In this document: positions 23,988 to 27,589 of the stretch, piece by piece
How the letters are laid out: each line of letters opens with the position of its first letter
Position numbering within the stretch: the stretch's first letter is position 1
Source of the DNA: Paenibacillus brasilensis
GTDB taxonomy: Bacteria; Bacillota; Bacilli; Paenibacillales; Paenibacillaceae
Assembly: GCF_009363115.1 (NCBI RefSeq)
Contig: NZ_CP045298.1
Location: 4,771,501 to 4,835,500 of the forward strand
Length of the DNA stretch: 64,000 bases
Direction: 5' to 3'
Made by a program: the position numbers and the translations under genes
The notes under the pieces: generated by a model
What the model saw: only the letters and a program-made list of their open reading frames with translations
What the model was told of the DNA's origin: nothing
Databases searched by the model: none

Positions 23988-23996
23988 TGCTATAAT
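23988..23996 (+). promoter_or_regulatory. Extended -10 promoter of the leader-yidC unit
   Basis: TGC-TATAAT matches an extended -10 element. No good -35 is seen at 17 bases; TTGACC at 23974 is too close. Transcription would begin near 24003, only a few bases before the leader ribosome site. Confidence 0.55.
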
Positions 23997-24026
23997 CGTA
24001 GCAACGAACCGAAGGAGGTGAATCCC

Positions 24027-24347
24027 TTGTTTGAGCTTCAGGACCTGCTCCCCTATTTATTTACAATCGGCTTGCTGTGTACCGTAACCTATGCGTATCT
24101 CACTCATTTGCACGGCAGTGTACCCGAATGCTGGGTAGAAGGCGGGGCTGTGCGGTCGCATGCTTCTTCACTGATGCCGATATCTGCCCGTGGACAGGAC
24201 ATGCCTGTCCGACTGGCACGCCATATTCGGCGCAAGGAAGCGCCGGATGAAGACACGTCAGATTGTTTCCCCTCGTTGAACGATAGTACAGCCAATCAAC
24301 GAGGAGGAACATATGAAACGTTTCAAGGGATTCACCTTTTGGGGTAA
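24027..24347 (+). CDS. Leader membrane peptide overlapping yidC, candidate MifM-like force sensor
   Basis: AAGGAGGTG at 24012-24020 directs a TTG start at 24027, giving 106 residues. Residues about 7-25 form one hydrophobic segment (LLPYLFTIGLLCTVTYAYL). A polar linker follows, then a basic stretch RLARHIRRK (62-70) and an acidic cluster DEDTSD (74-79). The ORF runs over the yidC ribosome site and ends 35 bases inside yidC. In Bacillus subtilis the leader MifM, with one N-terminal helix and an arrest sequence containing basic and aromatic residues and a DEEDAGS tail, stalls ribosomes when YidC activity is low and so frees the yidC2 ribosome site. The layout here is analogous: membrane segment about 50 residues before a basic/acidic stretch, followed by an SD-hiding stem. 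The arrest itself is inference. Confidence 0.7.
   Translation: MFELQDLLPYLFTIGLLCTVTYAYLTHLHGSVPECWVEGGAVRSHASSLMPISARGQDMPVRLARHIRRKEAPDEDTSDCFPSLNDSTANQRGGTYETFQGIHLLG
24271..24304 (+). promoter_or_regulatory. Stem-loop sequestering the yidC ribosome site
   Basis: CCTCGTTGA (24271-24279) pairs perfectly with TCAACGAGG (24296-24304) around a 16-base loop. The 3' arm covers GAGG of the yidC Shine-Dalgarno GAGGAGG (24301-24307). A ribosome paused near leader codon 77-79 would cover the 5' arm and open the stem. Confidence 0.75.
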
Positions 24348-25146
24348 AAAAGAACGGATATTAGGAATGATGGTATCATTGGCGGTGGTCATGCTGTTAT
24401 CTGGATGCGGTGCGACTGCTGGAGAGATTAATGCACAGACACCCGGATTTTTTAATCATTATGTAGTATTCCCGCTTTCTTGGCTCATCCAGCAATTGGC
24501 GCAATGGTTTGGTGGAAGCTTTGGACTGGCCATCATGACATTGACGTTAATTGTCCGTCTGGCGTTACTGCCGCTAATGATGCGTCAAACACGTGCTCAA
24601 CAGGGGATGAAGCGCAAGATGAGCGCCATGCAGCCCGACTTGGACCGAATTAAGAAAAAGTACGAAAATAAGAAAGATGCTGCCAGCCAGCAAAGTATGC
24701 AGCAGGAAATGATGGCACTTTACAAAGAGCATCAGTTCAATCCGCTCAATATCGGCTGTTTGCCTATTCTCATTCAGCTCCCGATATTGAGTGGCATGTA
24801 CACTGCGATCCGGTTAACCCCGGAGCTGGCCTCTCACTCCTTCCTATGGTTCCGGCTCGGACGGCCGGACTGGATTTTGGCAGTGATCGTCGCAGTCGTT
24901 TACTTGGCACAGGCCAAGCTTTCTCAGCTTCAAATGACGGCTGACCAGCGCAAGCAATTTGCCATCATGGGATATCTTTCACCCATTATGATGGCGGTCT
25001 TTTCCTTCAACGCCCCTGCAGCCATGCCACTATACTGGACAGTCAGCGGCACCTTTTTGCTGCTCCAGTCCTTATGGTTCCGTAAACGTTATCCAACGGA
25101 GGAAGTAGAGACTAAGGCTAAGCTTGGAAAAGTCACACCGACCTAA
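24313..25146 (+). CDS. yidC: Membrane protein insertase YidC/Oxa1 family
   Basis: YidC inserts membrane proteins with or without the Sec translocon. It is made as a lipoprotein: the signal ends in the lipobox LLSGC with acceptor Cys32. Five membrane segments follow, the first carrying the conserved groove arginine in TLIVRLALLPL, then the cytoplasmic coiled hairpin (about residues 95-135), and LNIGCLPILIQLPIL in the third segment. Length 277 fits SpoIIIJ/YidC2 proteins. The ribosome site GAGGAGG lies five bases before the ATG and is half buried in the leader stem, so expression likely depends on translation of the upstream ORF. Confidence 0.94.
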   Translation: MKRFKGFTFWGKKERILGMMVSLAVVMLLSGCGATAGEINAQTPGFFNHYVVFPLSWLIQQLAQWFGGSFGLAIMTLTLIVRLALLPLMMRQTRAQQGMKRKMSAMQPDLDRIKKKYENKKDAASQQSMQQEMMALYKEHQFNPLNIGCLPILIQLPILSGMYTAIRLTPELASHSFLWFRLGRPDWILAVIVAVVYLAQAKLSQLQMTADQRKQFAIMGYLSPIMMAVFSFNAPAAMPLYWTVSGTFLLLQSLWFRKRYPTEEVETKAKLGKVTPT

Positions 25147-26081: not shown

Positions 26082-26753
26082 ATGAAACAAGCACCAGCAA
26101 AGCTACCCATCTCTATAGCCCTGCTTACATGTATGGTATGTGCACTTGGCTTTGCTTTAATCGCATTATGGGTCAGCGACCATCAGGTGCGGCATTTTGA
26201 CTACATGATCATAACGGATATTCAACAGCTGGAGTCCCCAGCAATGACTCATATAATGAAGTTTTTCACCATAATCGGTAGCGGGATTCCGATTATAATC
26301 ATTATTTTAATCGCCATGTTTGTGCTGAACAGAGTATTGGGACACCGTAGAGAACTGTTGTTTTTAGTAATTGCTGTGCTGGGTTCGGTGCTGCTGAATA
26401 CGGTGCTAAAGCTGCTCTTTCACCGTGCGCGTCCCGAAATTAACCGTATTATTGAGGCGAATGGATATAGCTTTCCAAGTGGACATTCCATGACTGCTTT
26501 CAGTATGTATACGGCACTGGCCTTTATAGTGTGGAAGCATATTCCTTCCAGGCTGGGACGCATCCTGCTGACCGCGCTCAGCAGCCTACTGATTGTAGCG
26601 ATCGAGACAAGCCGTATTTATTTAGGCGTGCATTATCCAAGCGATGTTCTGGGCGGTTATTTTATGAGTGCCTGCTGGTTGGCGGCCTGTATTTGGTTTT
26701 ATCAGCGTTATGAAGAACGAAAGCCGCCACTTCGCTCTAAATCGAAAGCATAA
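26082..26753 (+). CDS. PAP2-family membrane phosphatase
   Basis: This six-helix membrane enzyme has the three motifs of the phosphatidic acid phosphatase 2 superfamily: KLLFHRARP, SGHS within FPSGHSM, and SRIYLGVHYPSD. Members dephosphorylate phosphatidylglycerophosphate, diacylglycerol pyrophosphate or undecaprenyl pyrophosphate. The sequence resembles Bacillus YodM. The ribosome site is CGGAGGG. It converges on a second PAP2 gene of a different subfamily, sharing one bidirectional terminator. Confidence 0.88.
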   Translation: MKQAPAKLPISIALLTCMVCALGFALIALWVSDHQVRHFDYMIITDIQQLESPAMTHIMKFFTIIGSGIPIIIIILIAMFVLNRVLGHRRELLFLVIAVLGSVLLNTVLKLLFHRARPEINRIIEANGYSFPSGHSMTAFSMYTALAFIVWKHIPSRLGRILLTALSSLLIVAIETSRIYLGVHYPSDVLGGYFMSACWLAACIWFYQRYEERKPPLRSKSKA

Positions 26754-26777
26754 CCGGTGACAGACCCATAAAGCTGT

Positions 26778-26809
26778 AAAAAAGCAGACGCATTAGCGCC
26801 TGCTTTTTA
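26778..26809. terminator. Bidirectional terminator between two PAP2 genes
   Basis: AAGCAGACGC and GCGCCTGCTT form a stem with one G-T position and are flanked by A and T runs on both sides. The stop of the minus-strand gene lies inside it. Confidence 0.8.
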
Positions 26810-27443
26810 TTTGGGCAGAGGAAGTGGGACCAGTGATGTGAGTCCTGGCCTGTACAGCAGGCTTGAGCCCCAGTTTTTTCTCCCCATTTTCATAAAAAAT
26901 AATAGCCGCCTGTATGAAGATACCAGGAAGCTTCCGACGCCGTATGAATGTATGAATGCCGACAGCGCACCCTGCCCCAATGACCGCACCTGCCAATATA
27001 TCCGAAGGATAATGTACACCGGTCCAGACTCGAGATACAGCAATGAGAATCGCCAGGAAAACCCAAAGCACGCGATATTTTTGACGATGAAGCCACAAAA
27101 TTGCGGCCAGAGCAAAAGCTCCAAGGGCATGATTACTCGGAAATGAAGCGTTAGCCTCGTGGTGAATAAGCTGGATAACAGCATGTCCGACGAAAGGACG
27201 ATCCCTGTAAAACAAATGCCCCAGGCCCCAACTGATTGCAAAGCCAATGCTAATAGTGACAACAGCTTCTATAACCATCATCCGATGTGGCATTTTAAAG
27301 GAGAACCAGTAAATCAGCAAAGCCACTCCAAACAAATAAGGTGCATATTGAGCCAAGAAACGCATGATTCCATTTAAAAAGGAAAGGTGATTAGCCAGTT
27401 CATTGATCCAGTGAAATAAAGCATAGTCTACATTAATTAACAT
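26793..27443 (-). CDS. Undecaprenyl-diphosphatase, BcrC-like PAP2 protein
   Basis: BcrC-type enzymes recycle undecaprenyl pyrophosphate for cell-wall synthesis and give bacitracin resistance. Motifs are GHLFYRDRPF, ASFPSNHA and SRVWTGVHYPSD, in a membrane protein with an N-terminal INELANHLSFLNGIMRF stretch typical of BcrC. The start is the ATG ending at 27443, with AAGGAGT nine bases ahead. It is adjacent and divergent to a two-component system; the same pairing recurs at 54-57 kb with clearly paralogous proteins. The 45-residue tail after the last helix is polar. Confidence 0.9.
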   Translation of the reverse strand: MLINVDYALFHWINELANHLSFLNGIMRFLAQYAPYLFGVALLIYWFSFKMPHRMMVIEAVVTISIGFAISWGLGHLFYRDRPFVGHAVIQLIHHEANASFPSNHALGAFALAAILWLHRQKYRVLWVFLAILIAVSRVWTGVHYPSDILAGAVIGAGCAVGIHTFIRRRKLPGIFIQAAIIFYENGEKKLGLKPAVQARTHITGPTSSAQIKSRR

Positions 27444-27589
27444 GAATAAATTACTCCTTAACATCAAAAAATGAATTACAAAATTACATTATAGAGGGTC
27501 TCAACGAATAAAAGCTTAAAATCAAATAAAAAATGCATGTCTTTCCCATTCCTCAATTTGTTTTTCTATAAAAAATAGGTGGTTTTGCG

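Follow-up and report, generated by a model that had tools for sequence, protein, structure and literature searches.

Three arrest peptides encoded upstream of yidC are listed in PMC13183943: MifM, ApcA and CliM. MifM arrests elongation at several sites (four stalls) and is released by YidC-dependent insertion. In Bacillus subtilis, as described in PMC4423224, the arrest needs residues R69, I70, W73, I74, M80 and N81, and the first published stall has Asp89 in the P site. The MifM class of PMC10987492 covers 592 Firmicutes genomes, picked by clustering, a localization signal and an acidic criterion. CliM, from Clostridia, has been experimentally shown to monitor YidC (PMC13183943). ApcA and the RAPP-type peptides (ApdA, ApdP and the RQH family) are found upstream of yidC or sec genes and have a proline in the motif, according to PMC10987492.

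The locus considered here lies in a stretch of 64,000 nucleotides from Paenibacillus brasilensis, referred to below as the window; coordinates are positions in the window and every feature is on the + strand. Comparison with relatives establishes a coding leader with a conserved helix and a conserved motif at steady spacing, a covarying stem that hides a Shine-Dalgarno sequence, and linkage of all this to yidC2. We consider it very probable that this is an arrest leader that monitors YidC in the manner of MifM and switches on a backup yidC2. In the literature searched, no paper paired Paenibacillus with MifM and a single, unrelated one paired it with an arrest peptide; the genus is not mentioned in the main text of those arrest-peptide papers that were checked for its name. 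The charge criterion of PMC10987492 (five-residue mean below -0.3 within residues 70-100), reimplemented here on the centres of the five-residue windows, is passed by 127 of 128 leaders, so some Paenibacillaceae may well sit in the supplement of that paper, and the published MifM set may already contain these leaders.

The leader ORF, its peptide and its linkage with yidC2

An extended -10 promoter (TG-N-TATAAT) is read directly at 23988-23996. It does not appear in the output of a scan for -35/-10 consensus promoters, presumably because a -35 hexamer at the correct spacing is lacking. A hexamer resembling -10 lies 18-60 nt 5' of the leader start in 96 of 128 Paenibacillaceae leaders, and in 79 it is preceded by TG. 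The leader Shine-Dalgarno, AAGGAGGT (24012-24019), has similar counterparts before the start codon in relatives. The ORF itself (24027-24347) begins with TTG at 24027 and runs for 106 codons to a stop codon at 24345-24347, sharing 35 bases with yidC; the stop lies 32 nt inside that gene. In the translation, a hydrophobic segment at about residues 7-25 is followed by a basic run (62-70) and by D74 E75 D76 T77 S78 D79, then C80. The original prediction had named the promoter, the ribosome site, the 106-codon TTG ORF, its single N-terminal helix, the basic run, the acidic DEDTSD at 74-79 and the 35-base overlap, and all of these are read directly; the coordinates that it gave are right.

Across the 128 leaders, with starts chosen by rule, TTG is found in 114, ATG in 12 and GTG in 2; the rule probably sets the start too late in L157, L158, L162, L163, L165 and L166. 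Most Paenibacillaceae leaders thus retain a weak start despite a strong Shine-Dalgarno. By leader identity the closest named loci are those of Paenibacillus sp. BJ-4 (97%) and of P. terrae, P. maysiensis, P. farraposensis and P. ottowii (85-91%). A locus labelled Paenibacillus polymyxa ISL-58 (L243) has a leader 53% identical to that of the window, as in P. xylanexedens and P. amylolyticus, and its species label may be wrong. The leader has no family in Pfam or NCBIfam at E <= 10. A profile of 20 leaders of the genus (A1) finds just four unrelated matches among PDB sequences (E 0.2-1.7), and an Rfam scan of the whole 64-kb window gives nothing at gathering score.

The gene downstream (24313-25146), the proposed target of regulation, encodes a yidC2-type membrane insertase (Pfam PF02096, 5.5e-44; NCBIfam TIGR03592, 7e-51, above cut-off). 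Its ATG at 24313 is preceded by the Shine-Dalgarno AGGAGG (24302-24307, direct reading). The same genome has a second, distant YidC (35% identity; G000:C1:2275898-2276611), and hence two YidC genes; its single leader-profile match at E <= 1 is the window locus. Further downstream, beyond yidC and a GNAT-like gene, two PAP2-like (phosphatase) genes stand tail to tail at 26082-27467, the names coming from reading the translations.

The leader and this type of yidC occur together. In a genus survey with the YidC protein as query, 73 of 75 genomes carry the window-type yidC and 2 solely the other YidC. By pattern, both motif and 3' arm of the stem are present at all 73 window-type loci, with the leader frame open save in L065 (G042:C141, a sheep-gut metagenome-assembled genome). 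There the linker is interrupted before the motif by an in-frame TGA, in the place of a TTA in the sister locus L070, and the leader is intact otherwise; as the source is such an assembly, we read the TGA as decay or an assembly error. Including 60 loci from other Paenibacillaceae genera, 133 leader loci of the family were fetched. The 60 all have yidC downstream, as loci chosen from profile matches and not a random sample. Peptide counts use 128 leaders, since L016, L017, L065, L113 and L164 were dropped by the start or motif patterns (a variant motif can be seen by eye in L113 and L164); stem counts use 132 loci (L164 dropped), with 107 distinct sequences.

Profile A1 matches 159 of 295 Paenibacillaceae genomes in 14 of 19 genera at E <= 0.01, and a profile of 49 leaders (A2) matches 178 of them in 16 of 19 genera, weak matches counted in. 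A YidC search of the same 295 genomes gives a yidC2-type match in 168 and none in 127, with the cut at E <= 1e-60, set after noting that no match fell between 7.3e-64 and 5.7e-48. A leader match is present in 168/168 genomes with a yidC2-type gene vs 10/127 of the others, the latter transcribed by hand into the comparison; Fisher's p of about 4e-71 is just a guide because the genomes are related and not independent. Eight of the 10 leader-matching genomes without a clear yidC2 have weak matches (E 2.8e-5 to 0.0099) and one YidC each. The other two, G253 and G314 of genus g13, have a strong leader match and three YidC matches apiece, none of yidC2 strength, which suggests a broken or split yidC2 with the leader remaining. 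In the class sample, A1 matches 11 genomes outside the family, the best at E 1.6e-6, and the one place inspected, in G375, is upstream of a yidC2.

Selection on the peptide is strong. For codons 2-80 dN/dS is 0.131 in frame vs 1.11 and 2.00 in the other two frames, ratios that are rough because silent sites are near saturation; the set comprised those 61 leaders of the genus (60 distinct) in which the count of codons to the conserved Pro is exactly 73. By part, the values are 0.052 for the tail before the helix, 0.056 for the helix (codons 9-28), 0.215 for the linker and 0.128 for the motif (codons 62-80). Because of this protein-level selection the leader is taken to be translated, a conclusion drawn from sequence. 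Over codons 81-90 the ratio rises to 0.905, with silent change down to 0.45 from 1.44, so protein constraint stops at codon 81 and constraint on the RNA starts there.

The predicted N-terminal transmembrane segment (codons 7-25, 24045-24101) is the best 17-residue hydrophobic window. The tail before it has no Lys or Arg in 126 of 128 leaders and two or three Asp or Glu in 120, a charge pattern that predicts N-out, C-in insertion. From the end of the helix to the conserved Pro there are 50 residues in 80 of 128 leaders and 43-52 in 124; to Asp79 there are about 56, the published MifM median (PMC10987492) being 54. The distance of about 50 residues between helix and acidic cluster in the original prediction is right. 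Spacing and predicted topology fit a helix that would emerge N-out and be inserted when the motif occupies the peptidyl transferase centre.

The putative arrest motif, RLARHIRRKEAPDEDTSDC, spans codons 62-80 (24210-24266) and is supported by conservation and its dN/dS of 0.128. In 92 distinct segments aligned on Pro (from 128 leaders), the basic side has Arg at -8 in 84, Arg or Lys at -5 in 91, Arg at -4 in 85 and Lys or Arg at -3 in 92, some of these basic positions having belonged to the pattern used for finding leaders. Nearer to Pro (92) are Glu at -2 (78), Ala or Ser at -1 (92), Asp at +1 (90), Asp or Glu at +2 (84) and Asp at +3 (88), where the counts from -1 to +3 are partly by construction, as the selection pattern was [AS]-P-[DEI]-[DEGS]-[DE]. 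Beyond these, Asp or Glu is found at +6 in 67 and Cys at +7 in 77, and +8 is variable. A Trp occurs at -11 in 29/92 and at -10 in 7/92. The last conserved residue is thus Cys80 (codon 24264-24266), next to Asp79 (24261-24263), and its codon ends 4 nt 5' of the 5' arm of the stem in the window. Conservation takes in more than the acidic cluster named in the original prediction and runs as far as Cys80. Conservation of C-terminal residues across Paenibacillus yidC loci, expected from that prediction, is strongly borne out by the 73/73 loci and by dN/dS.

The stem over the yidC Shine-Dalgarno

Directly after the motif, a 5' arm, CCTCGTTGA (24271-24279), pairs exactly over 9 bp with a 3' arm, TCAACGAGG (24296-24304), that takes the first half of the yidC Shine-Dalgarno. 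This perfect stem, at these positions, was part of the original prediction and is confirmed to the base. The fold of 24240-24340 has -27.5 kcal/mol (z = -2.5; 4 of 200 dinucleotide shuffles are equally or more stable), and adds six further pairs that cover the remaining half of the Shine-Dalgarno except one base. In the 107 distinct sequences 92.6% of cells are paired; all nine pairs are kept in 73 and at least seven in 95. RNAalifold, with the structure not supplied, predicts 8 of the 9 pairs.

The pairing covaries, as had been anticipated for compensatory changes across yidC loci. There are 123 two-sided changes vs a mean of 34.8 (sd 5.1) in shuffled alignments, and 0 of 500 shuffles reach 123. 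The covariation score is 0.394 vs 0.166 in shuffles, and slid structures score 0.020-0.122. Two-sided changes occur in 7 of the 9 pairs, a number that alone is not unusual (106/500 shuffles). In L023 they replace leader residues on both arms (S by L, R by Q), and the leaders of L066, L069 and L071 change frame between the arms with the stem kept; since residues or frame change while the stem stays, the RNA is what is kept there.

The geometry is steady. The Pro codon begins 28 nt ahead of the 5' arm in 94 of 107 sequences; of the 13 exceptions, 11 deviate by whole codons. A 16-nt loop is found in 81, and in 74 the start codon follows the end of the 3' arm by 9 nt. The conservation of the locus, the stem pairing, the covariation and the protein selection together mean that the arrangement of leader and stem is not due to chance.

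A toeprint lies about 15-16 nt from the P-site codon. The ribosome was modelled here by leaving out the covered RNA up to +15. Over the 107 sequences, opening the Shine-Dalgarno takes a median of 10.2 kcal/mol in free RNA, 3.9 in free RNA after shuffling of arm and loop, and 1.8 when the model has a ribosome at Asp79. The modelled ribosome lowers the cost by more than 2 kcal/mol in 105 of 107, and in the window from 11.9 to 2.7 kcal/mol. A ribosome paused near codons 77-79 had been expected to cover the 5' arm, and that register agrees with the model at Asp79.

Of the 132 loci, 123 have a leader frame that passes the yidC start, with the stop seen in 80 and the frame still open where the fetched DNA ends in 43, so in most loci a released ribosome would cross the yidC start site, which may add to repression. 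The stop lies in the 5' arm in 5 loci and in the loop in 4. These nine early stops include all four leaders that are in frame with yidC (L139, L152, L163 and L166), where an early stop matters because the leader would otherwise fuse to YidC.

Proposed mechanism and alternatives

In the mechanism proposed here, the N-terminal helix would be a YidC substrate of N-out topology. When insertion is slow, the motif RRKEAPDEDTSDC would stall the ribosome; from the end of conservation at Cys80 and the MifM alignment given below, we infer a stall with the P site at about Asp79 and the A site at Cys80. The stalled ribosome would cover most of the 5' arm, the stem would open and yidC2 would be translated. 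Working insertion would pull on the nascent chain and release the arrest, and the ribosome would then cross the yidC start and go on to its own stop; the stem would refold behind it and yidC2 would stay low. The conservation, the covariation and the selection described above all support the MifM-like arrest leader controlling yidC that the original prediction had put forward, with arrest, release by insertion and induction of yidC as its conditional part. If so, Paenibacillus is predicted to hold a spare insertase that is silent until the main one fails.

Two other accounts dispense with arrest. If the leader were only coupled to yidC in translation, passing ribosomes would open the stem and yidC would be read with no specific arrest or sensing; with a leader frame that is open past the yidC start in 123/132 loci, no elongating ribosome would leave the stem closed. 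A conserved peptide is not required for coupling, but codons 2-80 are strongly selected and the 50-residue distance from helix to Pro is kept in most leaders, and coupling gives no account of why protein selection ends at codon 81, where the stem begins; we reject it as very improbable. The conserved helix and basic-acidic segment, together with the linkage to yidC2 in 168/168 genomes, could also belong to a small membrane protein that works in its own right, e.g., as a partner of YidC, the stem then being ordinary translational repression. Such a protein would have an unconserved C-terminus that stops in the 5' arm, in the loop or past the yidC start (5, 4 and 123 of 132 loci) and no protein-level constraint at codons 81-90, and for a protein acting in trans the steady distance from motif to stem has no role. 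This account is likewise rejected as very improbable, somewhat more so than coupling.

The other question about the arrest leader is whether its origin is shared with MifM. Five Bacillus proteins (L217-L221) were taken as MifM because they are upstream of yidC2 and because counting back from residue 95, assigned to the end of L220, recovers the published R69, I70, W73, I74, M80 and N81 together with the acidic residues 86-89. Three of the five (L217, L219 and L220) were scored singly, against 2000 shuffled decoys with composition kept in two halves and local patterns not kept. With profile A2, L219 scores 12.3 bits and L220 15.9, each above all decoys and in register from helix to acidic cluster, and L217 scores 6.9 (3/2000 as high). 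Among leaders upstream of yidC in other Bacilli, L199 (19.0 bits) and L225 (14.1) also outrank all decoys, whereas L200 (7.0; 6 as high) and L204 (0.6; 335) do not. With A1 the decoys as high number 0, 1 and 4 for L219, L220 and L217, and 0, 0, 1 and 16 for L199, L225, L200 and L204. In reverse, a MifM profile scores the top Paenibacillaceae leaders 9.9 and 9.7, with 7.2 for the best of 1782 scored decoys. The window leader aligns with MifM with no gap, Pro83 matching Pro73, Asp89 matching Asp79 and residue 90 matching Cys80, and some genera retain W-[IL]-x-R-x-V-x-R.

These results speak against an independent invention, in which a Paenibacillaceae leader with MifM logic would have arisen separately around R-K-E-A-P-D-D-D-x-x-D-C. 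Such an origin is possible but rather unlikely, and several observations favour it. In a profile-profile comparison by hhalign with five close Bacillus MifM rows the probability is 2%, which is not significant, and none of the five MifM genomes is among the 36 matches at E <= 0.1 in the class-wide search with A1. M80-N81 of MifM align with K70-E71 of the window, a replacement by K-E, and the window peptide has no Trp in the place of W73. Arrest peptides upstream of sec and yidC have emerged repeatedly, as described in PMC10987492, and convergence on a helix with a basic-acidic motif is possible as a source of the similarity because the decoys do not keep local patterns. A related reading, still more doubtful, is a YidC sensor of the Paenibacillaceae's own, either independent or with its contact residues replaced. 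It would have the core K-E-(A/S)-P-D-(D/E)-D-x-x-D, Asp79 in the P site, a requirement for Cys-tRNA in the A site and one main stall, and released ribosomes would sweep the yidC ribosome site and block initiation, making a two-sided switch. A common origin with MifM, the leader being a strongly diverged relative, is likely on these alignments, though not proven. The original prediction of an independent or strongly diverged sensor thus leans to the second alternative and is not settled, with the decoy scores on one side and the 2% of hhalign on the other.

Comparison with MifM and other arrest peptides

The leader shares with MifM the place directly upstream of the second YidC gene, one N-terminal helix, an acidic cluster about 55 residues after it, and a stem that hides the yidC2 Shine-Dalgarno. 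The sequences differ, with a core of RRKEAPDEDTSDC here and RITTWIRKVxRMNSPxNDxED in MifM. The leaders here also have a conserved Cys after the acidic run and mostly TTG starts, and their ORF crosses the yidC start in 123/132 loci; the mifM ORF at L219, in Bacillus, stops short of that start. Few of the MifM-critical residues R69, I70, W73, I74, M80 and N81 are retained in the window peptide, and for that reason the leader is named MifM-like and not MifM. The leader occurs in most genera of Paenibacillaceae, and its motif departs from that of MifM at the majority of known critical positions.

Leaders of other kinds are found in four other families of Bacilli. L198, L199, L200, L204 and L225 are different short leaders directly upstream of yidC, each combining a helix with a C-terminal stretch that is charged and mostly acidic; in L199, L200 and L204 a repeat complementary to the Shine-Dalgarno is seen by eye. 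A search of 398 class genomes with L198, a Bacillus MifM protein, finds its own genome and four others, all of one genus, and nine further matches (E 0.0028-0.043), of which the one inspected, G607 (L225), is upstream of a yidC. The class of yidC leaders seems wider and more varied than MifM proper. The natural series from Paenibacillus through other Bacilli to Bacillus offers a view of how an arrest motif swaps its contacts while keeping its place and its job, and lets one ask whether the A-site Cys belongs to the arrest motif.

The ApcA and RAPP-type peptides share with this leader a proline in the motif and, for ApcA, the place upstream of yidC; they differ from its core, K-E-A/S-P-D-[D/E]-D. 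Membership in the RAPP type was rejected, as RAPP, RAPG and RAGP are absent from the window peptide (K-E-A-P-D), and Glu at -2 (78/92 segments) and Asp at +1 (90/92, partly by selection) are the rule among its relatives. CliM of Clostridia (uC_KYxIW) resembles it in being an arrest leader upstream of yidC with one helix and a stem that hides the Shine-Dalgarno; assignment to CliM was likewise rejected, since neither KYxIW nor KWxIW is found in the window leader. SecM and VemP differ in controlling secA and secD2/F2 and have unrelated motifs. What they have in common with the mechanism proposed here, as they are described in PMC10987492, is arrest in cis that opens a stem hiding the Shine-Dalgarno of a localization gene.
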